A stretch of 21,486 nucleotides of DNA, from positions 1 through 21,486 of IMG/VR virus record IMGVR_UViG_3300020438_000327; one strand, given 5' to 3'. The notes under the pieces were generated by a model, which searched no databases, was not told where the DNA came from, and saw only the letters and a program-made list of their open reading frames with translations. This document shows, in pieces, positions 1 to 19,170 of the stretch (position 1 is the stretch's first letter; each line of letters begins with the position of its first letter). Made by a program: the position numbers and the translations under genes. Source of the DNA: a virus.

Positions 1-3000
1 TTCTGTCCTTGAACAGCATCTGTGTTGTTTACAAGAGTTGCAGTAACACCAGATGTCTGACCTGTAATTACTTCACCCTGTTGGAATGTTCCTTTAACTG
101 GGAAGTAGTATAAGAAACCAGAATTATTCTGGTCATTAATCAACTCACCAACAGCACCTGATGTGCCACCAACGAGTCTTTCTCCAGTACTAAGTGCTCC
201 ACTAAGAGGAGTATTAACATCAATTGTAAGACGAAGACCTTTAACAGTACCATCAATGGTTGTCTCAGAAGAATCAAATCCTCTAGCAATTGCACCGTAC
301 TTACCGTAAGATGAGTTACCAGTAACAGCACGAATTCTACCACCCTTAGTAGCGGTGTAAGAAATGTGTGCGTAGTATGTGAAGGATGATACAATCTCAC
401 TAGCAGCAGCGTTAGTAACGTAAATACCAACACCACCATCTAGTACCTGAGTAAAGGAGTCAAACACCATTGACTTGTAAGAAGGTGTTGACGATAGATT
501 GTAATGATTATGTACAGCACCATCAAGTAGAATACCAACTGCTGCTCCAGAGAAGATTGTACAGTTTTGAATGTATGGTGACTTAACGATTGGTGAATTA
601 GGATTGAATCTGAAGAACACACCCTTAATGGTGGCAGTATCCATATCCTTATCATTGGATGTAGAAGGAACAAATCCACTCATTCCTTCAAACACTAACT
701 CTTTAAGAGTAGTATTTGATCCAAGCAAGCACATTGTAGACTCTTCGTTGCTACGAGTTGCTGCTGTTGCAATTGTGATATATGGATCAGTAGCAGTAGT
801 AGCATTTGCATTACCGTTACCAATTGCTGTAGTAACAATACCAATTAATGTTGATAATGCACTGATAACTAAGTTACATTTAGGATCGGTATCAGGAGTA
901 ATTGAATTATCAATTGTTTGTGATAAAGTATTACCTGCACTTACACCTGATACTTGGTTACGTATGACTAAAGTAGCAGTAGTTTCAATATTATTTGCTA
1001 ATCCTGTATCTTCTGCATTAACACCTGTTATTGCTGTTCCACTTGTAAGAGCTACAGCATAATCTTTAACTTTATTATTTCCACCATGCTTAATGTTATA
1101 AGCAATTTCATTAACTAATTCAATCAAACGTGCCTTAACATCATTTTCTGTACCAGTTACAGATCCATTATCAGCAACGTACTTATGATATGCTTCATGA
1201 GCAATGAAAGACTTGTTAGATTGTAACAAATCAAAAGCATCACCGTTCTTATTACCTACAATATCAACATACTTGTCGCTAGTATTCCATGACCCACCAC
1301 TAATATTAAGTATATGGACATTAGTTGCATAATCAGAATCAAGAACCATAGCGGTCTTGGTTCCAGCATCATTAGAAATAACTTCACCAAACTTAAGATG
1401 AGTTACAGATGATGAAAGTCCCAATGCTTGCATACTGGAATCACCAGCAGCAGGTTTAATAATAGAAGTTCTTAAGTTGTCACCATATAGTGAAACAAAT
1501 TCAGGAACAATAATTGGAAGAATCTCTCCAAAAATACCAGACTTAATGAAAATTGTAATTGGGTTTGTAGCAGAAGGTGCTTCAGAACCAGTCAGTCCAC
1601 TGATATAATCACAAGCATATCTTAGAGATGCAAATGCTCTGGAAATACTCTTACCATTGTTAGCATCAGAACCTTCTTTTGTAACATAGTAAACACTTTC
1701 TGTTACATTATTCTTTTCCCAAGTTGGAAGTAATGGAGAACCACCAACAGTTAAAACTTGACCAGTTGCTTCCCTTTGTGCAGCAACGTTACCAACTTTT
1801 GATAATCCATCTGTTACAGCAGATACGAATGTATGTGCAGATGTGTCAGAAGAAATACCAACATTAACTGTGAATGTATTTGCATCTACAACAGTAACAG
1901 TTAACCATTTTCCACTTGCAGGGTCAGTTGCTCTTGGATATGGGTGGTTTGTTGCATTGCTATCCTTATCACAAGTAAACGTGATAGAACTATCATCAAA
2001 TTTAACATAATCTCCAGAACTAAATCCATGACTAGCAACAGTTGCTGTTAGAAGACCAGTTGCACCACTAAATGTTGCATTGGTAATTGTTGTTTTACTT
2101 ACAGCAGCGTTTGCAGTTGAAGCTCCAGATGGAAGTGCAATTCTGTTAACACCTGATGCTGCTTGATAAAGCATGTCTCCAGTTTCTTGAAGAACCTGTG
2201 CTGTATCACCACCTTGTGCAACATAATTCCAATATGTTCCGCCTGGATCCAATTCAGGAGCAGTACTTGCACCACTTACGTCATCTGCTTTACAAACATA
2301 TGAGTTAGAGTTTCTGTTAACAACATCACCTTTCTGATAAACAGTTGCTGAATCCCAACCACCTAACCAGTTAAATCCTTCTCCAATAAGACCCCAAGTA
2401 TTTGCATCGGTAGGAGCAACACCTGTAGAAGTAACTTTATTTACAAATGTATTACCACCAAATCTTACAACATCACCTGGAGCATATGTTGTACCAGAAA
2501 CATATTCACCTTGAGCAGAGAAACCAGTTGTTAATACTTCCCAATTGGTTGTATCTGCATTAGGAGAAGTAGTACCACTGTGGGTTCCTTTACTTACATA
2601 ACTGTAACCTCTGTAAGTTACAATGTCTCCTTTTTGGTATGCTGTTGCTGATACCCAACTATCTTCAAAATTTAGACCTTCAACATAGACTACAAATTTT
2701 GTTGAATCAAAATTTGCACCTGAAGTGTGACCAGTAGTACAACGGTATTGTGTATTACCATGCTTAACTACATCGTTAACTTTGTACCAATAAGCTGCTT
2801 GCCATCCACCAACACTTGCTGCACCTTCTCCTTGAAGATCCCAGTTTCCTAGGTCACTTCCGTAAAAATCTACTTGTAATGCTGTTGATGTATGATTTGT
2901 TGTACAAACATAGGAGTTTGCACCGTACTTGACGATATCGTCAATGACGTAAGCAGTGGAAGCAGTCCAATCACCTCTCCACTTAAACTTTAGTCTACCG

Positions 3001-3017
3001 AGTCTAAAATCTGCCAT
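1..3017 (-). CDS. Large tail fibre/spike protein with CBM5/12-like repeats and beta-helix (3' end outside window)
   Basis: Open from an ATG at 3017 to the window edge, about 1005 codons visible and no stop. An AGGA lies ten bases upstream of the start. Residues ~14-266 hold five copies of a W-x-Y-x2-GD-V-x-Y-G-x2-Y repeat (GDWTASTAY..., GGWQAAYWY..., DSWVSATAYQKGD, YVSGTTYAPGD, GWDSATVYQKGD). This resembles carbohydrate-binding modules of family 5/12. Residues ~305-407 form a separate beta module with ITFTC and YPRATDP motifs. From ~443 (VYYVTKEGSDANNG...) comes a DUF1565-like opening and a probable right-handed parallel beta-helix, ending at the window edge in a GTSGAVGE / GQTSGVTA module. 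Known relatives are structural proteins of T4-like cyanophages. Sugar binding on the host envelope is inferred from the repeats. No catalytic residues can be assigned. Confidence 0.88.
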   Translation of the reverse strand, partial: MADFRLGRLKFKWRGDWTASTAYVIDDIVKYGANSYVCTTNHTSTALQVDFYGSDLGNWDLQGEGAASVGGWQAAYWYKVNDVVKHGNTQYRCTTGHTSGANFDSTKFVVYVEGLNFEDSWVSATAYQKGDIVTYRGYSYVSKGTHSGTTSPNADTTNWEVLTTGFSAQGEYVSGTTYAPGDVVRFGGNTFVNKVTSTGVAPTDANTWGLIGEGFNWLGGWDSATVYQKGDVVNRNSNSYVCKADDVSGASTAPELDPGGTYWNYVAQGGDTAQVLQETGDMLYQAASGVNRIALPSGASTANAAVSKTTITNATFSGATGLLTATVASHGFSSGDYVKFDDSSITFTCDKDSNATNHPYPRATDPASGKWLTVTVVDANTFTVNVGISSDTSAHTFVSAVTDGLSKVGNVAAQREATGQVLTVGGSPLLPTWEKNNVTESVYYVTKEGSDANNGKSISRAFASLRYACDYISGLTGSEAPSATNPITIFIKSGIFGEILPIIVPEFVSLYGDNLRTSIIKPAAGDSSMQALGLSSSVTHLKFGEVISNDAGTKTAMVLDSDYATNVHILNISGGSWNTSDKYVDIVGNKNGDAFDLLQSNKSFIAHEAYHKYVADNGSVTGTENDVKARLIELVNEIAYNIKHGGNNKVKDYAVALTSGTAITGVNAEDTGLANNIETTATLVIRNQVSGVSAGNTLSQTIDNSITPDTDPKCNLVISALSTLIGIVTTAIGNGNANATTATDPYITIATAATRSNEESTMCLLGSNTTLKELVFEGMSGFVPSTSNDKDMDTATIKGVFFRFNPNSPIVKSPYIQNCTIFSGAAVGILLDGAVHNHYNLSSTPSYKSMVFDSFTQVLDGGVGIYVTNAAASEIVSSFTYYAHISYTATKGGRIRAVTGNSSYGKYGAIARGFDSSETTIDGTVKGLRLTIDVNTPLSGALSTGERLVGGTSGAVGELINDQNNSGFLYYFPVKGTFQQGEVITGQTSGVTATLVNNTDAVQGQ

Positions 3018-3890: not shown

Positions 3891-6800
3891 TCAAATAATC
3901 CAGACCTGTACGTGTGGTGGTTGGAATAGTTGTACCTGTATGAGTGCTCTACCAGTAATTGTTGCACTACCGCTACCGATATATGGAGCAAGAGCAAATG
4001 CCTCATCAAGGTTGTTAACATTAGATATTCTTCCAGAACCTTGATATGCACGAGTGCGAATGTCATAACTATCGCCAGTGATGTCAATCTCAACTGTTGG
4101 TTGTTCCGCAAATGTGAGTAGTGGATCGCCTGATGTACTTCCAACTGTAAGAATACCACCCTGACTGATTTCTCTGAATGTTGACTTCTCTGAAACTCTT
4201 GTTCCATAGAAGGAGAATAGAAGATCTTTTTCGTCTGGGTTGAAACTGATAGATTCTGCTGCACCAGTAAGAACTGGAATATTTCCAAATCCAACGAAGT
4301 CTCTTGCTCTGGTTGTATGAGCATTTCCACTGAGAGGTATTGTACCTTCGCCATCGTGTGCGAACCTGACAAGAACTCCTGCTTCTCCAGTAGTGGAAAG
4401 GGTTCCTGTTCCAATTTCTCTTGCTGTTCTGGAATCTGCACCTTCTCCAGTGAACGAGAAGAGCATTTGTCTCTCGTCTGGATTGAATGTAAGAGACTCG
4501 GCAGCACCACTGAGTTTTTTGAAGAAACCAGAACCAATATAAGAACGTGTAACTCTGAGATCTGATTCTCCAGATGTCTGGAATAGAATTGTACTTGGTT
4601 CTGGTACAATCGCTGTACATTCCGCAGCACCACCAAATCCAAATAGTGAACCAGTACCAATATGCGAAAGAACGACATTGATATATCCTTCGCCACTGAT
4701 TTTGGTTTGAACAAATGGTTGCTCTGCAAATGTAAGTAGTGGATCTCCTGATGTACCAGAGAATGTAAGAGTTCCACCCTCGCTGATTTCCTTGACTGTA
4801 GTTCTGTCTGATCCTTCTCCAAGGAACGAGAAGAGCATTTGCTTCTCTTCTGGGTTGACAGTAAGAGACTCGGCTGCTCCAGCAAACTTCCTGAATGTAC
4901 CAGAACCAATAACATGTGGTACATAATGAATATTTGCCTCTCCAGTAACAGGAATTGTACCTGAACCGTGGAATGCCTGTGTTGTAAGAACTGGATCTGC
5001 TTTTCCAGTAATATCAACTTCAACCTGTTTAATCTCAGAAACACTAGCAGATTCAGAACCTTCTCCAAGGAAGGAGAATAGCATCTGTCTTTCGTCTGGG
5101 TTGACAGTAAGAGACTCGGCTGCTCCAGCAAACTTCCTGAATGTACCAGAACCAAAGTGTGTAAGAGAGAATACAATATGTACTTCGCCACTGACTTTGT
5201 ATAGACCCTGAGTTTCGTATGTAGATCTGACTGCAATAGATGCACCACTGAATCCAAAGAGAGAACCAGATGCAATTGTAGAAACAGAACGATTCTCTGT
5301 ACCTTCTCCTGTGAAGGAGAATAGCATTTGCTTCTCGTCTGGATTGAAGGTAACAGATTCTGCTGCTCCAGAAATTTTCTTGAGTGTACCAGTACCAACA
5401 AATACTCTTGTTCTGTCTGTGTCTGCAATTCCAGTAACAGGAATATTTCCAAAGAATACTTCTGATTTTGTAGATCGTGTAGATGATTCTCCAGTAAGAC
5501 GTATAACGCCAGAACTTGTTTCTGCAACAGATGTTTTCTCTGCCTCTCTTGTTCCAATAAAGGAGAAGAGCATTTGCTTCTCCAAAGGATTGAAGGTAAG
5601 AGACTCTGCTGCACCAGCAAATTTCCTGAATGTACCAGTACCAACAACACTTGGTACATAATGAGTCTTGCCTTCTCCAGTAACAGGAATTGTACCAAAG
5701 ACATTCCAACAAGGTTGCCAATCGTAAGTATCCCAATCGCTGAGTGGTCCTCTGCGAAGAGTGAATAGTTTTCCATCTCCTTCTTCTCTGAAGGTTGCCT
5801 TTTCTGCACCTTCTCCAAGGAACGAGAAGAGCATTTGCTTCTCTTCTGGATTGAAGGTAACAGATTCTGCTGCTCCAGAGAATTTGTTGAATGTTCCAGA
5901 ACCAATAACATGGGGAACCCAATGAGTCTTGGCTTCTTCTGTCCGTATTGTAAATCCACCCTTGGATACCCAAGAAGGTTGCCAGTCGTATGTTGTCCAT
6001 CTATCAAACGGACCAGGAACAAACTTGAATAGAACTGTCTGTTCTTCTGGGGAAACTCCAACACTTTCAGCACCACCACCCATGCTCCATAGGTTACCTT
6101 TACCAAAGGTACGGAGACTGAAGTTAGGTTTACCAGCACCGTATACCTTGACTGGAGGTTCAGCAGGTGAATCCCATTGAGGTGGTACAACAATATCTGC
6201 ATCACCACTGATGTTGATACCATAAACTTTATGCTCACTCTCACCTGTAGTGACGTAAGTGTATACTTGTATTTCAGCAGTAATTGCATCACCACGTATG
6301 ACACCAAGTTCACCGAATGGACAATCCTTACCAGTATCATCAAGAATCCAACCACGATCCCAAAGACCGTCTTCTGTATCCTCAACAGTTCCATTATCCC
6401 AAGAATCGGTAACAGTTGAAAGTTGACTTGGAATAGTGTAAGTAACACCATCTGCAATTGACAATACACCAGAAACACTAGTGCAACCAGTAGATGCAAC
6501 AGTATTGGATGTTACATCTCCACTAACATCAACACAGGCAACTGCTGCTCTATCAACGAGTAATCCATAATCAAGTTCCTCTGGATCAATACAGACACCA
6601 AGATCATAAACCTCAGTATGTTTCTCATCTGAAAGCTCTGTGAGTTCTGGTTTTCTAGAACGTAGTTTGATTGTACCAGAACCATAGTAAGCCTCGGTCT
6701 CTGTGATGTAACCTCCACTAAGAGACTTGATGGATCCACTACTAAATTCACTAAAGGTGAGATTATAAGGTTCTGCTGTTCCAAGGAATGAGAAGAGCAT

Positions 6801-9707
6801 TTGCTCTTCAGTTGGATTAAAGGTAAGAGACTCAGCAACACCAGAGAATTTCCTGAGTGTACCTTCACCAATAACACCAATAGCAGCAGCATATGGAGAA
6901 GTACCACCAACTGCAAATAGACCAGTACCTTGAATAGAAACAGTGAGTGTCTCAGAGGAACCATTGAACGAGAAGAGATCACCAGAACCAATATGTAATA
7001 GTGAGAAGTTAGTCTTAGCAGCATTATCAAGTCTAAGTCCACCACGACTTGTCCAACTAGGCTGGAATGCACATATAGCATCACCAGTAATATCAATCTC
7101 ACCGTAAATACAGGCAGGTTGACCCATTGCCACTGTATCCAGAATATGACCATGATCAAGTAATTGATCTTCAGTCTCAAGAAGAATATTGTAATCAATA
7201 AACTCTGTTGGAATTGTGGTGGTAGAAGGAACATTATAAGTTCCATCAAGTGTTACAACCTCACCTTGTCCAATTCTAACAATTCCTGTTGGTGCAGTAG
7301 CATCAGAAATTGTCTGAGTAGTAAGGTCTGTAATGGATATATTTGTGGAATCAACCAACAATCCATAATCAAGATCTTGGAACTCAACAATAGAACTACA
7401 GTTATACCAGTAGGTTCTTGCTTCCTCAAGTTTGTTCCATGCAAGAATAGTACCAGAACCTTCATAATCATATGAAGTTCTTTCTGCTCTAAGAGTAGCA
7501 AGGTTCTTAATTCTTCCAGAACCATACCATGTACCATGAGTGAAGCTAAGACTTGAGTATCCTCCAGTAAAGGAGAATAGCATTTGCTTCTCTTCTGGAT
7601 TGACAGTAATAGATTCTGCACCACCAGAGAATGTAGAGAACGTACCTTCACCATGATGTTCAACTTGGAAACTGTATGATCCATCGCCATACATTCCATT
7701 AACATGCCCATCACCAGGAGCAAGAAGACTGAAGTTAGTCTTAGAAGCACCTTGAGGTTTGAATAGACCTCCACCAAAGACACTAGCAAATAGTGGTAGT
7801 ATTGCTTCACCACTAATTTTAAATAATATACCCTCACTAACTTCATTGAATACTCTTGGAGTTTTAGCAACACCAGTAATATCAGCAACTGTACCGAATG
7901 GAATACCATGAGCATGGGTTCCAAGTATCAAACCATAATCATTAACTGGACTATGAATATCAGAAACTAATCCATTATCAATGAATGATGTTGGTGATGC
8001 TATATGGTTAGGAACAGTATATGTTGCTCCAAGACTTACTACCTCATTAAGACCAACTCTAATAACTCCAGTTGGTGCAGTCTCATCTGAAGTAACTGTA
8101 GTTGTTGTGAGAGTTGTAACTGGTGTTTGTGTTGGATCAAGTAGTAATCCATAATCATAATCTACCGATGGTACGAATGCACTTTCGTTGTAGACTTCAG
8201 TGTGTTTCTCATCTGAAGATTCAATAAGTTCTGGTTTTCTGGAGAATATATTAATCTCACCAGATCCAATATAAGAATTGGTTCCTCTTTCTTCTCCACC
8301 AGAGACATTAAAGAGACGACCATCACCATAGTAAGTACCAAAGGTAAATCTAAGATCCTTATATTCTCCAGTAAAGGAGAATAACATTTGTGTTTCTTCA
8401 GGATTAAATGATATAGAATCGGCAACACCAGAGAATGTAGAGAATCTACCCTCTCCAACAACACCAAGTGCAGCAGCGATATCACTATCACTATGGAACG
8501 CAAATAATCCGTCACCTGGTTGTAGTAGACTGAAGTTAGTTTTGGATGCTCCAAAGAATTTAAATCCACCACTACCACGTACACCAACATCAAGTGGTAC
8601 TCCTGCAACACCACTAAGCTTACTGATATAACCACGACTTGTCCAACTAGGTAGGAATTTGTCAGCACATCCAAAGTCAGGATCAACCTTAATTCCACCA
8701 AACGGAATGAGATCACTAGGTGTGAGAATGAGACCCCAATCCTGCTGTAAAGATGCAGGCTCAGTAATAGTACCCCAATCAGTGCTACTGGTGTGGGCAT
8801 TGTTATTTTGTGCTACCTGATATGACGATGGAACTCTCGCTGTTCCATCTACTCTGACAATACATCCAGTTGATAAACCAGATACATCTCCAGTTACATT
8901 TTCTTCTAAGGTACATCCACCTAGGACACCATAATCACGCTCTGTAAAGTAATCAACAGCAGAACTATTATAATTCTCAGTATGTTTCTCATCTGAAAGT
9001 TCAATGAGTTTTGGTTTTCTGGAGACTATCTTAATCTCGCCAGAACCATTCCATGCAAATACTTTATCTTCTTCTACATTAGAGAAGTTATTGAACGTTC
9101 CAGAACCATAATAATGCTCTGTGTTTTTCTCACCAACTTCACCAGTGAAAGAGAAGAGCATCTGCTTCTCATCTGGATTGACTGTAAGTGAGTATGATGT
9201 ACCAGTGAATTTTCTAAAGCTTCCACTACCAGTAATAGCAGCAGCAATTCCAATAATAGAGTTTCCTTGTAGCGGAAGGATTCCCCTGCCGTCAATGGCA
9301 GGAGAATAATCAACATCCGCAGTACCACTAAGTCGGACCTTACCATCAGTGATAATACCGTATACAGCAGGAGATGTCTGTCTACCGAATGATATAAGAT
9401 TTCCTTGACCAACCCATGCACTAGTTGCTTTCCACGAAGCTTCATTAAGTGTCTTACTGAATCCAAAGGATTCTAGATCTGTGACATGAATGATACGTCC
9501 ATATTCAACCTGTGTTGCATTAAGGTCTGCAACTAGACCATTATTACTTACTGTTGTAGCGTTAGCAGTTATTGATCCAAAGTCAACTTCGGTATACAGA
9601 TCAATAATTGCTGGATGATAACTATATGAAAAGCTGCCCAATCCACCACTCGCACTGCGAATGATTGGTGGAAATATTCCTTGTGTATCATAGGAATAAA
9701 CGGACAT
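3891..9707 (-). CDS. Giant repeat-rich virion structural protein, 1938 aa
   Basis: Uninterrupted 1938-codon frame starting MSVYSYDTQG. It contains about 13 copies of a unit of the form G-G-T-F-x-K-F-x-G-A-A-E-S-x-T-F-N-P-x-E-K-Q-M-L-F-S-F-x-G-E-G. Copies are spread out in the N-terminal half and dense from about residue 1150 to 1880. A second, longer period of roughly 265 residues occupies the N-terminal ~1150 residues. Each long unit opens with a DYGLL element (near residues 250, 515, 780 and 1048), carries KTNFSLL in most copies, and ends with RKPEL-x-E-x-SDEKHTEVY. The composition is Gly/Ser/Thr and beta-rich, with no signal peptide, membrane helix or enzyme motif. Giant repeat proteins of this kind occur among cyanophage structural genes. 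A fibre or whisker-like appendage is inferred. The start has no clear Shine-Dalgarno and lies 17 bases downstream of a terminator. Confidence 0.92.
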   Translation of the reverse strand: MSVYSYDTQGIFPPIIRSASGGLGSFSYSYHPAIIDLYTEVDFGSITANATTVSNNGLVADLNATQVEYGRIIHVTDLESFGFSKTLNEASWKATSAWVGQGNLISFGRQTSPAVYGIITDGKVRLSGTADVDYSPAIDGRGILPLQGNSIIGIAAAITGSGSFRKFTGTSYSLTVNPDEKQMLFSFTGEVGEKNTEHYYGSGTFNNFSNVEEDKVFAWNGSGEIKIVSRKPKLIELSDEKHTENYNSSAVDYFTERDYGVLGGCTLEENVTGDVSGLSTGCIVRVDGTARVPSSYQVAQNNNAHTSSTDWGTITEPASLQQDWGLILTPSDLIPFGGIKVDPDFGCADKFLPSWTSRGYISKLSGVAGVPLDVGVRGSGGFKFFGASKTNFSLLQPGDGLFAFHSDSDIAAALGVVGEGRFSTFSGVADSISFNPEETQMLFSFTGEYKDLRFTFGTYYGDGRLFNVSGGEERGTNSYIGSGEINIFSRKPELIESSDEKHTEVYNESAFVPSVDYDYGLLLDPTQTPVTTLTTTTVTSDETAPTGVIRVGLNEVVSLGATYTVPNHIASPTSFIDNGLVSDIHSPVNDYGLILGTHAHGIPFGTVADITGVAKTPRVFNEVSEGILFKISGEAILPLFASVFGGGLFKPQGASKTNFSLLAPGDGHVNGMYGDGSYSFQVEHHGEGTFSTFSGGAESITVNPEEKQMLFSFTGGYSSLSFTHGTWYGSGRIKNLATLRAERTSYDYEGSGTILAWNKLEEARTYWYNCSSIVEFQDLDYGLLVDSTNISITDLTTQTISDATAPTGIVRIGQGEVVTLDGTYNVPSTTTIPTEFIDYNILLETEDQLLDHGHILDTVAMGQPACIYGEIDITGDAICAFQPSWTSRGGLRLDNAAKTNFSLLHIGSGDLFSFNGSSETLTVSIQGTGLFAVGGTSPYAAAIGVIGEGTLRKFSGVAESLTFNPTEEQMLFSFLGTAEPYNLTFSEFSSGSIKSLSGGYITETEAYYGSGTIKLRSRKPELTELSDEKHTEVYDLGVCIDPEELDYGLLVDRAAVACVDVSGDVTSNTVASTGCTSVSGVLSIADGVTYTIPSQLSTVTDSWDNGTVEDTEDGLWDRGWILDDTGKDCPFGELGVIRGDAITAEIQVYTYVTTGESEHKVYGINISGDADIVVPPQWDSPAEPPVKVYGAGKPNFSLRTFGKGNLWSMGGGAESVGVSPEEQTVLFKFVPGPFDRWTTYDWQPSWVSKGGFTIRTEEAKTHWVPHVIGSGTFNKFSGAAESVTFNPEEKQMLFSFLGEGAEKATFREEGDGKLFTLRRGPLSDWDTYDWQPCWNVFGTIPVTGEGKTHYVPSVVGTGTFRKFAGAAESLTFNPLEKQMLFSFIGTREAEKTSVAETSSGVIRLTGESSTRSTKSEVFFGNIPVTGIADTDRTRVFVGTGTLKKISGAAESVTFNPDEKQMLFSFTGEGTENRSVSTIASGSLFGFSGASIAVRSTYETQGLYKVSGEVHIVFSLTHFGSGTFRKFAGAAESLTVNPDERQMLFSFLGEGSESASVSEIKQVEVDITGKADPVLTTQAFHGSGTIPVTGEANIHYVPHVIGSGTFRKFAGAAESLTVNPEEKQMLFSFLGEGSDRTTVKEISEGGTLTFSGTSGDPLLTFAEQPFVQTKISGEGYINVVLSHIGTGSLFGFGGAAECTAIVPEPSTILFQTSGESDLRVTRSYIGSGFFKKLSGAAESLTFNPDERQMLFSFTGEGADSRTAREIGTGTLSTTGEAGVLVRFAHDGEGTIPLSGNAHTTRARDFVGFGNIPVLTGAAESISFNPDEKDLLFSFYGTRVSEKSTFREISQGGILTVGSTSGDPLLTFAEQPTVEIDITGDSYDIRTRAYQGSGRISNVNNLDEAFALAPYIGSGSATITGRALIQVQLFQPPHVQVWII
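4849..4909 (-). repeat. 61-bp perfect direct repeat, copy A
   Basis: Identical base for base to 5095-5155 and 246 bases (82 codons) away in the same frame. It encodes the LTVNP/KFAGAAES part of two adjacent repeat units. Perfect identity beyond what the protein requires points to recent duplication or conversion. Confidence 0.9.
5095..5155 (-). repeat. 61-bp perfect direct repeat, copy B
   Basis: Partner of the copy at 4849-4909. Recombination between the two would delete or add exactly 82 codons without breaking the frame. Confidence 0.9.
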
Positions 9708-15468: not shown

Positions 15469-18400
15469 TTAATCCTTAGTACATATTATAACATCAACAT
15501 ACTGAACTGACAAGTTTATACTATTCATACTAGAAGTGCCACTAGCAGTAAACGAAATATCATGATTGTGAGCATCACCACTAAAACTATGATTATGTGA
15601 ATTCATACTTAAACCATGACTGTGATTGGGAGTTGAGTGATTGTGATTACCAATACTAATACTACCACTGAAATCGTGATTGTGTGTATTACTTACGTTG
15701 ATACTATGATAGTGTGATGAACCAGAACCTGCACTTTGTACATCGGTTTCAGACCAAGCACCAGAAGCAAGAGTACCAAATTCAGCACCAGGAGTCCCAC
15801 CACCACCAGATAATGTAGCATACCTTGTTCTATCAAAATCGTGACTATGAATTGGCATCTGTGAAGTTGTCAGTGTGTGATTGCCAGTAACATCATTTAT
15901 AACAATGAATTTATTATCGGTAGTATCACTAAAACTATAAGTTCCTGAACCATCATTTCCCGTAGTTGAACCACCACCACTATCAACTGAACCAGTACTA
16001 GTTCTACTACCGACAGTTCCAGATGCTGTTTCATTATCTGTGCTTTCATCAACAGTAAATGACACTGTTCCACTAGTACTGTGTGTAGTAAACGCTGATG
16101 TAAATCCTACACTACCACCACTACCACCACCAGATCCACTTACAACTCTCAATGCCTTATTATTATGTGAACCTGATTTTGTCCATCCAGTAGGAGCACT
16201 ACCTTGTGCAAACATCATTGCAGTTCCAGAAGGAATTGAAGGAGATTGACTACTACCTGATGCTGTAGATTCAAAAGTAATATTATTACCAGACCTAGAA
16301 ATAGTCATTCCAGTTCCTTCAATAAGTGATACATCTCCAGCACTAGAACCAGTAGACGCTCCTAAACGAATTATTTTAGAACCACTTCCATCTATAGCAC
16401 CTAAGGTATATGTTGTATTGGTATCAGTATTGGTATCAGTATCAGGTGGCACTTCCCAAGTACCGTCTGCCCTTAAATACTTACCACCATGTGCAGATGG
16501 TAACTGTGGAGCTAGACCATCAGCAGTAGTATCAACTACATTGTAAGTTGTATTTGTATCAGTATATGAGGTTAAGAATCCTTGTGAACCAACCCATGTT
16601 TGAGTTGCATATCCTTGTGAACCAACCCATGTTTGAGTTGCATATCCTTCTACTGAATGATCACCCCAACCATGTGCAGTATTCCAATTATTAATATTTG
16701 ACTGTAGAATATTTGATGCTACATGAGCAGAGAATACAGGATCAGTTTCGCTGGTTAAGTATCCTGCTTGTGTGTGATCACTACCAGTTGCAGTAGCAGC
16801 ATTTTTAATTATATAACATAATGTATAGTATGGTGGTATGGTATTTACACTATCAGATGCAGTAATATTTACGTTAGCAGTACCACTAAAACTATGGGTA
16901 TGTCCGAAACTACCACCTGCAAAAGGTTGACCACCACCACCAGTAACAACACCACCAGTGCTTCCACTAATAGTTACACTATCAGATCCATCAATGTTTA
17001 CTGTATCAGATGTAGAACCGCCTTGATTATCAATACCATGACTATCAGAACCTGTAAAAACATAAGCACCATTCGCATTATTAGTAACATTAAGTGTATG
17101 TGTTGTTGTTGAACCAGTACTAGCACCAATTATAATTTCTCCAGCCATACTACTATGATTCTGGCAATTGTAATAAAGAGTAGTTCCTCCTTGTGTAGCT
17201 GTGTAAAGAGTACAAGTTGAATTTTGAGTTCCATTTCCTGAAACACCACCACCAGTATAATCAACTCCGTTAAGAAAAGTTGGAAGTTGATTAGCAGTAC
17301 CAGTACTATTAACAGTCTTAATTTGGAATGGGTGATTAGGAGCATTAATATTGAATTGAACTATATCACCTTCATTAGCATAGATAGTGGGATTACTGGA
17401 ACCACTCAGAGGTGCTGCCCCCATAACAAATCTAGATCTTAGATCAGGTACAAAGGATCTTATTGCTAATAGTTCTGCTGTTGCAGATGCAGAACCATCA
17501 CATAATTGATATCCAGTTGGTATGTTAGATGTAGTTCCTGACCATATTGTGATTGTTCCTATAGGATCAGCACTACTAGCACCACCACCGCCACTACTAG
17601 TAGCATCTGCTGCTGGAGCCCAAGCAGAACCATTCCATTTTAGTACTTCATTAGTATTTGGAGCAGTACTAGAAACATTAGTAAGGTCACTGAGGTTACT
17701 TGGTATTGTAGGTTTGTTTAATATCTCTTCAACACCACTGGAAGCATTCCAATCTGAATTTACTTGTGCTGCTGGAATAGTTGGTTGATCTGTTAAGTCA
17801 TTATAACTTTCAGAGAATAATGTAGGTTTGTTAGTTAGATCACTATAAGATCCAGAAAATAATACAGGTGGAGTATATTTGAATGTACCATTAGTATCGT
17901 CATATTCTATAGCACCATCACCACTAGCAGAATTAGGAGTACCTATAGAAAGATCTGTTAATGATATACCACTACCACCAGCAGAAGTAAGGTCAGTGCC
18001 AGGTTCCCACTTGCTCGTTGTTCCATTCCATTTTAAAACTTGTCCTGGTGTTGGAGAAGGAGCATTAACGTTTGATAAAGAATTTAAAGAAATCTCGTTA
18101 GGTTCCCACAAACTAGTATTATTATTCCAACCAAGGAATGTACCAATTGCAGGAGTACCTGTTATAGTTACATCTTGAAGATCGTTAAGAGAATAATTAT
18201 GTTGATGGTTACTTAATGCATAACCAGATAAATCTGGAGGAGTAAATGTAAACTCACCAGTCTGATCATTATAATTTAAAGCAGCAGTACCAGTAATTGT
18301 ACTGTTAGTAACTGAAAATGCTGTTAGATCAATACTACTACCACCACCTTGAACATTTGATAAATCAGGAGGAGTGTATGTTAGTACACCTGTACTATTA

Positions 18401-19170
18401 TCATATGAAAGAGCAGCAGTACCAGGATTAGGATTTGTTGTAACAGATATATCTCCTAATTGAATACCTGCTGGATATGAATCTACCCATTGACTGCTAT
18501 CAGTATCTTCATACCATATCTTTAATTTTCCTTCATCAGACTTCCACCACAATTGACCATCATAAGGAGTTGATGGTGCATTATCATCTGTACTAACTTT
18601 TGTTGCAAGATTACTTAGGTCTGGTGGGGTGTATGTAAACTCACCATTTGTATTATTGTATGTAACATCACCTGATCCATTTGCAGTTGGATTTGGTTTA
18701 ACTACTGATAGATCAGACCTAGTAATTCCAACATCAGATGATGGAACCCACTTTGTATTATTCCATTTTAATACTGAATTCAATACTGGTGGATTAGTAG
18801 TTATATCAACATCTAATAAAGCACCAATACTAAGAGTTCCAATACCAGTTATATAACCTTCAAGACTGTGATCTCCCCAAGAAGCAGCATCATCCCAAGC
18901 AGCAATTTTTACATTATCCTGCACCCAATAACTACTTAGATCTGGTGGAGTAAATGAAAATCTACCATTCTCATTAGGAAATGAACCTACTATCTGGTAA
19001 GATAAACTACCACTACCACTGGCAGCAAGAGATATAACTTCAAAATCACTAAGTTCTATATCATTCTCTTCCTGCAAATCAAGATCATACAAATCTTGGG
19101 CAATTTGATTAATTTCTATCCTTTGCTCTTCAAAGGTAAATGTCTTTGGTACATTTCTAAGTATTGCCAT
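15469..19170 (-). CDS. Large tail fibre with collar domain, cupredoxin-like insertion and His-rich tip, 1233 aa
   Basis: The ATG at 19170 is fixed by alignment with the 701-residue paralogue (AILRNVPKTFTFEEQRIEIN). Residues ~40-520 are shaft: FTPPDLS segments near 72, 178, 265, 308 and a variant at 431, GWGDHS-type segments, and LKWN-x-W-x-P motifs. Residues ~536-790 are a phage tail collar domain: DPIGTITIWSGTTSNIPTGY...LCDGS, VPDLRSRFVMGA, and a closing NTIPPYYTLCYIIK. A cupredoxin-like segment (~594-684) is inserted. Further shaft repeats follow, including a tandem YATQTWVGSQG pair at ~843-864. A typical fibre tip (~979-1233) has GTAMMFAQGSAPTGW, MPIHSH and a terminal VQYVDVIICTKD. The tip holds seven His-x-His pairs. 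Host adhesion is inferred. The start overlaps the preceding gene by 14 bases. Confidence 0.9.
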   Translation of the reverse strand: MAILRNVPKTFTFEEQRIEINQIAQDLYDLDLQEENDIELSDFEVISLAASGSGSLSYQIVGSFPNENGRFSFTPPDLSSYWVQDNVKIAAWDDAASWGDHSLEGYITGIGTLSIGALLDVDITTNPPVLNSVLKWNNTKWVPSSDVGITRSDLSVVKPNPTANGSGDVTYNNTNGEFTYTPPDLSNLATKVSTDDNAPSTPYDGQLWWKSDEGKLKIWYEDTDSSQWVDSYPAGIQLGDISVTTNPNPGTAALSYDNSTGVLTYTPPDLSNVQGGGSSIDLTAFSVTNSTITGTAALNYNDQTGEFTFTPPDLSGYALSNHQHNYSLNDLQDVTITGTPAIGTFLGWNNNTSLWEPNEISLNSLSNVNAPSPTPGQVLKWNGTTSKWEPGTDLTSAGGSGISLTDLSIGTPNSASGDGAIEYDDTNGTFKYTPPVLFSGSYSDLTNKPTLFSESYNDLTDQPTIPAAQVNSDWNASSGVEEILNKPTIPSNLSDLTNVSSTAPNTNEVLKWNGSAWAPAADATSSGGGGASSADPIGTITIWSGTTSNIPTGYQLCDGSASATAELLAIRSFVPDLRSRFVMGAAPLSGSSNPTIYANEGDIVQFNINAPNHPFQIKTVNSTGTANQLPTFLNGVDYTGGGVSGNGTQNSTCTLYTATQGGTTLYYNCQNHSSMAGEIIIGASTGSTTTHTLNVTNNANGAYVFTGSDSHGIDNQGGSTSDTVNIDGSDSVTISGSTGGVVTGGGGQPFAGGSFGHTHSFSGTANVNITASDSVNTIPPYYTLCYIIKNAATATGSDHTQAGYLTSETDPVFSAHVASNILQSNINNWNTAHGWGDHSVEGYATQTWVGSQGYATQTWVGSQGFLTSYTDTNTTYNVVDTTADGLAPQLPSAHGGKYLRADGTWEVPPDTDTNTDTNTTYTLGAIDGSGSKIIRLGASTGSSAGDVSLIEGTGMTISRSGNNITFESTASGSSQSPSIPSGTAMMFAQGSAPTGWTKSGSHNNKALRVVSGSGGGSGGSVGFTSAFTTHSTSGTVSFTVDESTDNETASGTVGSRTSTGSVDSGGGSTTGNDGSGTYSFSDTTDNKFIVINDVTGNHTLTTSQMPIHSHDFDRTRYATLSGGGGTPGAEFGTLASGAWSETDVQSAGSGSSHYHSINVSNTHNHDFSGSISIGNHNHSTPNHSHGLSMNSHNHSFSGDAHNHDISFTASGTSSMNSINLSVQYVDVIICTKD
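15562..15858 (-). other. Seven His-x-His motifs in the fibre tip
   Basis: His-x-His pairs at residues 1108/1110, 1153/1155, 1163/1165, 1176/1178, 1183/1185, 1192/1194 and 1201/1203 of the large fibre. In the T4 long-fibre tip gp37, seven such pairs line the trimer axis and bind seven iron ions. The same number here is suggestive of a metal-filled needle, but no structure is available from sequence alone. Confidence 0.65.
16581..16646 (-). repeat. Perfect 2 x 33-bp tandem repeat
   Basis: Bases 16581-16613 are followed immediately by an identical copy at 16614-16646. They encode two tandem 11-residue units of the YATQTWVGSQG shaft element in the large fibre. A third, partial match continues for a few bases. 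Slippage or recombination here would add or remove 11 residues in frame. Confidence 0.95.
17119..17391 (-). other. Cupredoxin-like domain inserted in the collar domain
   Basis: Residues ~594-684 of the large fibre: a strand EGDIVQFNI, then NHPFQI with His613, a Thr/Gly-rich loop, and YYNCQNHSSMAGEII with Cys669, His672 and Met675. The His...Cys-x2-His-x2-Met order and spacing are those of amicyanin-type blue copper proteins. The surrounding collar domain is interrupted but complete on both sides. Related segments with Y-Y-x-C-x-x-H-x-x-M occur in marine phage structural proteins. Copper binding is not proven. Confidence 0.6.

Follow-up and report, generated by a model that had tools for sequence, protein, structure and literature searches.

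A cupredoxin-like module with a conserved His-Cys-His-Met set, inserted in the collar of a phage tail fiber, is a putative metal binder

Introduction

In plastocyanin, the copper ligands are His37, Cys84, His87 and Met92, lying in the loop that leads into strand 4 and where strand 7 ends or beyond it. An Asn or Ser directly after the N-terminal His, which makes an outer-sphere hydrogen bond to the Cys, is usual in cupredoxins without being strictly defining; amicyanin has an Asn at this position, and plastocyanin and amicyanin both carry a Pro two residues after the Cys. Metal sites are also known from phage tails: HxH iron sites in tail fibers are established for T4 gp37 and have been proposed for marine phages (PMC11705849).

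The window analyzed here, which is the whole stretch of 21,486 bases of a virus record, encodes a tail fiber with an inserted domain that resembles several described systems. It matches the type-1 copper domains of amicyanin, plastocyanin, rusticyanin and Cu nitrite reductase (PF00127, PF13473, TIGR02657) in the order and spacing of His...Cys-x2-His-x2-Met, in the placement of these residues relative to the strands, in an aromatic strand that ends in the Cys and in a closing hydrophobic strand. Unlike these domains, the phage module is embedded in tail proteins, shows weak similarity outside the ligand residues, has about 45–55 residues between the first His and the Cys, and carries a family-specific GVTNNG segment. 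The C-terminal domain of gp9 of Kyanoviridae (PHROG 677, PHROG 9158) belongs to the same domain family and shares the ligand set, but it is C-terminal, whereas the window domain is inserted in the collar of a fiber. Ig-like phage accessory domains are likewise mobile beta-sandwich modules of tail proteins; unlike them, the present module has a four-residue metal-type site that is present or absent as a set. As for T4 gp37 and the iron sites proposed in marine phages (PMC11705849), a metal in a tail fiber is proposed here. However, gp37 uses HxH motifs and iron, while the window domain has a single-domain His-Cys-His-Met site, with HxH motifs elsewhere in the fiber.

Results

A tail fiber with a split collar

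The domain is hosted by a 1233-residue tail fiber, around which the window encodes tail and virion-structural genes (PHROGs). The main features of the fiber are as follows.

15469–19170, minus strand: tail fiber ORF that carries the domain, 1233 aa (matches PHROG 9729, tail fiber protein, E-value 4.7e-82)
17410–17559, minus strand: N-terminal half of the split tail collar (LCDGS...VPDLRSRFVMGA), identified by its weak Pfam Collar match and its similarity to the empty-site collar of locus L312
17113–17409, minus strand: inserted cupredoxin-like domain, residues 588–686, delimited by family alignments, the AlphaFold2 model and C-terminal matches of PHROG 9158 and PHROG 677
16804–17112, minus strand: C-terminal half of the split collar (THTLNV...HTHSFSG...NTIPPYYTLCYIIK), identified by motif comparison with other collars

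The Pfam tail collar profile (PF07484) scores 13.4 bits on the fiber against a cut-off of 24, its target domain being interrupted by the insert. Motif comparison supports the identity of the receiving domain as a PF07484-type collar. In the window fiber, 204 residues separate PDLRxRF from PPYYxLxYI[IM]K, compared with 83–119 in ten other collar domains of the same kind. The collar of L312, with 77% identity in the part that precedes the insert, lacks the domain at this point and runs straight on as a plain collar, and the L318/L319 collars show THTL, the motif found directly downstream of the insert in the window. The spacing and the empty site of L312 together indicate that a module of ∼98 residues (588–686) was either gained in the window fiber or lost in L312. 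A sequence-only reading of the same DNA had described the collar as split by a segment, and these comparisons confirm it.

The fiber additionally contains seven HxH motifs at residues 1108–1203 (window positions 15562–15849, minus strand), one more at residue 757 within the collar, and one at residue 322. Elsewhere in the window, positions 3–3017 (minus strand) hold a fiber ORF that runs off the contig end and contains five CBM_5_12 carbohydrate-binding stretches (Pfam, 2.5e-20), and positions 3891–9707 (minus strand) encode a 1938-residue protein with many GSGTFRKFSGAAESLTFNPEEKQMLFSFxGE-type repeats (PHROG 11522, unknown function).

The inserted domain and its four residues

The C-terminal parts of PHROG 9158 and 677, both gp9-type, match fiber residues 588–682. 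The domain as a whole is slightly larger than the span of residues 594–683 given by the sequence-only reading, whose position was otherwise right. The four proposed ligands, each assigned from sequence, conservation, co-occurrence and the AlphaFold2 model, are encoded at these positions.

17332–17334, minus strand: His613 codon, first proposed ligand, just ahead of the third predicted strand
17164–17166, minus strand: Cys669 codon, putative thiolate ligand, closing the penultimate strand
17155–17157, minus strand: His672 codon, proposed ligand, in a loop
17146–17148, minus strand: Met675 codon, putative axial ligand, in the same loop

All four residues lie exactly where they had been placed before. 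The set was said to include a single upstream His, and His613 is indeed the sole His between residues 324 and 672. The C-x2-H-x2-M signature likewise has the amicyanin-type spacing ascribed to it and is followed by a hydrophobic strand, EIIIGA.

Distribution and carrier proteins

When the window domain was used as a tblastn query, matches were found in 57 phage records; a consensus-like family member retrieved 287, and the gp9 copy of P-RSM4 retrieved 349, almost all from Synechococcus or Prochlorococcus phages. The non-cyanophage records among the 349 include one phage each of Actinomycetia and Pelagibacter. Most often the domain is found at the C-terminus of gp9 (baseplate wedge tail fiber connector), whose identity is supported by Pfam T4_gp9_10_N scores above the cut-off. 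The gp9 body was matched in 292 records, and in 287 the match covered 80% or more of the full-length protein, domain included. In the records inspected, the gp9 annotation does not name metal binding for this C-terminal domain. Other phage carriers are fibers and very large virion-type proteins that contain at least two copies, and bacterial carriers are proteins of marine Bacteroidota and alphaproteobacteria. A functional type-1 copper center had been expected to be unusual in a fiber; the presence of the domain in hundreds of cyanophage tail proteins does not bear this out.

Among the bacterial copies, L102, L111 and similar flavobacterial loci encode two tandem domains per protein. In L102 the tandem copies stand behind Lipoprotein_15 secreted repeats, a context that suggests a cell-surface role for the bacterial copies. 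A related His...C-x2-H-x2-M stretch also occurs in two proteins with a YHYH protein domain (PF14240), encoded at L008 3256–6234 (54.5 bits), the gene after gp9, and at L007 3038–4405 (80.6 bits), in an Actinomycetia phage.

Predicted fold and relation to cupredoxins

With 121 relatives as input, AlphaFold2 predicts a confident beta-sandwich (pLDDT 89.7, pTM 0.82); the single-sequence model (pLDDT 48.7) was not used. In the numbering of the model, where residue n corresponds to fiber residue 586+n, the strands span residues 10–13, 17–21, 29–32, 56–58, 66–70, 77–83 and 90–96. His613 (27) sits just ahead of the third strand, Cys669 (83) ends the sixth, and His672 (86) and Met675 (89) fall in the loop between the sixth and seventh. 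This predicted layout corresponds to that of His37/Cys84/His87/Met92 in plastocyanin.

A Foldseek search of the model against the PDB placed Ig domains first (E-value 3e-3, TM 0.47), with no match below 1e-3; a multicopper oxidase ranked 22nd with a TM of 0.51, the highest of the list shown. Against viral models (BFVD), cyanophage tail proteins matched with TM 0.7–0.83. Some giant-virus ‘beta-sandwich proteins’, among them A0A481Z6J5 and A0A481YVH3 (of Pithovirus LCPAC302 and Marseillevirus LCMAC201), also reached a TM of about 0.7. The sequence-only reading had proposed a cupredoxin fold, to be checked by structure prediction and structure search. The prediction agrees with it, in the confidence of the model and in the placement of the ligands at the right strand ends; the search points both ways, as Ig domains come first and the copper-protein match, far down the PDB list, has the highest TM.

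Profile comparisons point toward cupredoxins. Searched against the PDB, the family profile retrieves Cu nitrite reductase first (3.9e-5), followed by auracyanin, plastocyanin, amicyanin, azurin and rusticyanin, and alignments of two family profiles to solved blue copper proteins have the Cys, His and Met in register. The NCBIfam amicyanin model matches 13 of 20 family members (best 6.2e-7), and the Pfam Copper-bind cut-off of 21.2 is passed by two copies, L009 from a Synechococcus phage (22.3 bits) and L137 from a bacterium (23.8 bits). The window copy alone has no copper-family match in Pfam or NCBIfam, the NCBIfam plastocyanin model included, and phmmer returned no meaningful match for it in the PDB. 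PDB sequence searches with the domain family returned no phage structure. When aligned by hhalign to two PF00127 proteins, the family scores 28.8 and 29.2, compared with maxima of 17.9 and 14.6 among 100 shuffles, and the ligands are aligned. With the four ligand columns masked, auracyanin B alone remains (E-value 0.084), below an unrelated match, whereas a pseudoazurin control masked in the same way still matches amicyanin at 1.5e-6. Because much of the profile similarity rests on the four ligand residues, homology of the domain to cupredoxins is likely rather than established.

A competing view is that the module is an Ig-like beta-sandwich, non-homologous to cupredoxins, in which a site for copper, zinc or iron arose independently. 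Ig-like domains frequently serve as accessory domains in phage structural proteins, Foldseek ranks them first, and sister domains lacking the site are abundant. Moreover, ligand masking removes nearly all cupredoxin profile similarity and leaves weak Ig-type Pfam matches, which in the family at large are sporadic and weak as well. Yet the four residues occupy cupredoxin strand positions, most of the domain aligns in register with the two cupredoxins, and for one of these the masked hhalign score remains above every shuffle (25.5 vs 14.6). When the ligands are included, the profile matches are copper proteins, not Ig domains. On this balance, we regard an independent origin within an Ig-like fold as rather unlikely and retain the cupredoxin-like assignment.

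Co-occurrence of the four residues

The first scans used patterns that included C and H (viral sequences) or C, H and M (genomes). All four residues were present in 140 of 145 non-redundant domains at these loci, a count set aside because the patterns had demanded some of the ligands. It was replaced by a second scan based only on GVTNNGxxxGxxxF-type codons, with no ligand in the pattern, all 125 matches of which fall within family domains. Among the 108 distinct complete domains recovered, 49 have all four residues, 44 have none, 10 have only the Met and 5 only the first His; in no case does the Cys or the second His occur without the full set. Co-occurrence of the ligands is therefore nearly all-or-none (Fisher p 4e-25, uncorrected for descent). 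The domains counted here are not independent cases: on the best tree, built without the ligand columns, the site changes 6 times, and well-supported branches force only 2 of these changes. An independent-pair test on this tree had too few supported pairs.

The H613, C669, H672 and M675 columns are among the most conserved of the family, albeit in a biased sample, and all 16 gp9 copies inspected carry the full set. Since the residues are both highly conserved and present or absent together in the unselected scan, the four found in the fiber domain are no chance combination. Ligands varying freely among homologs had been named as a finding that would refute the cupredoxin-like proposal; instead, the set co-varies. 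Structural columns such as G601, F615 and I617 are conserved with and without the site, and the site-less domains thus look same-fold.

The same data bear on the possibility of a metal-free adhesive or spacer domain, in which the Cys, His and Met would be structural relics or serve other contacts. The same kind of tail proteins include many sister domains that have none of the four residues and evidently still do their job (L044/L002, L299), and no electron-transfer partner is known. However, relics would not be expected to appear and disappear together, with the Cys and second His never alone, nor to be so strongly conserved and kept throughout the gp9 copies. A fold re-used without metal, one of the options raised by the sequence-only reading, fits the sister domains well but is disfavored for the window copy, where we consider it improbable. 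A conserved metal-type site is, by this evidence, very probably real.

Departure from the textbook copper site

The site differs from the textbook arrangement in its immediate surroundings. Of 232 site-bearing domains, 223 have a Pro directly after the first His, so that the usual Asn/Ser is absent; in the alignments, this residue is Asn in plastocyanin and pseudoazurin and Ser in rusticyanin. Two residues after the Cys, Pro is not among the kinds counted in site-bearing domains. Judging from known structures, a Pro after the first His cannot give the backbone hydrogen bond to the Cys sulfur that normally comes from the Asn position, while the non-Pro residue after the Cys could provide a hydrogen bond from the other side, as in azurin. 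By this analogy, the combination of the two substitutions predicts a copper site that is type-1-like yet non-standard.

Discussion

We favor, with somewhat better than even confidence, the interpretation that the domain is a mobile cupredoxin-like accessory module of tail proteins, equipped with a His-Cys-His-Met site, here inserted in a fiber collar and acting as a putative metal (copper) binder. Copper is a reasonably probable native metal of the predicted site, whereas the assignment of a specific role carries low certainty. In the mechanism envisaged, one metal ion, with copper as first candidate, would be held between the His613 loop before the third strand and the Cys669/His672/Met675 loop between the last two strands. 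At one end of the sandwich the metal would pin both loops, and this could stabilize a tail-exposed domain or tune its binding surface, giving a stabilizing or an adhesive role. The copper might be drawn from seawater or from lysed host cells. Electron transfer by the domain is unlikely because no partner is known. Since site-less sister domains are abundant, the fold seems able to serve structurally with no metal, and the metal therefore probably adds stability or a function and is not why the domain exists.

If the bound metal were instead part of what the host surface recognizes, the site would parallel, with copper, the Trojan-horse mechanism proposed for iron. The HxH iron-site precedent (PMC11705849) and the nine HxH motifs of the window fiber speak for copper-dependent recognition, but the domain is also present in bacterial proteins and in the connector gp9, and the results contain no link to a receptor; we consider this very improbable. 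It is hardly credible that the domain is a working electron-transfer cupredoxin taken from the plastocyanin gene carried by many cyanophages: petE is known in cyanophages (PMC3037559) and in S-SCSM2R one tail-type copy bears the annotation PetE, but that copy is a tail-family member beside a peptidase S8 family gene, with a Cupredoxin_1 score of 14.0 against a cut-off of 27, and the domain is embedded in virion proteins without a redox partner and has a Pro after the first His.

Plastocyanin (PetE) identity was also considered for the window domain itself and rejected: the domain is part of a 1233-residue fiber rather than a free-standing lumenal electron carrier and has no plastocyanin profile match. 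An origin from phage petE found no support. As regards annotation, the plastocyanin name given to the S-SCSM2R gene of this tail-domain family (L295 2240–2746, PQ898602.1) looks doubtful.

A cupredoxin or blue copper domain in phage tail proteins was not found described in the open-access literature, the part of the literature that was covered. The iron-binding HxH motifs and the cyanophage petE genes described there are distinct from this domain. For the wider interpretation, the chances appear evenly balanced that marine T4-like cyanophages generally carry a hitherto unrecognized copper-binding tail module, at the gp9 C-terminus and in fibers, with several copper ions per virion that would stabilize the tail periphery or aid adsorption, and with sister modules that lack the site as a unit. 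Because one module occurs in like proteins both with and without the metal site, mutation offers a direct test of what the metal does. Should the site bind copper, the majority of sequenced marine T4-like cyanophages would have copper on the tail, and copper would join a discussion of phage-borne trace metals that has so far concerned iron. It would also give a concrete handle on the function of gp9 and of the fiber domains in cyanophages.
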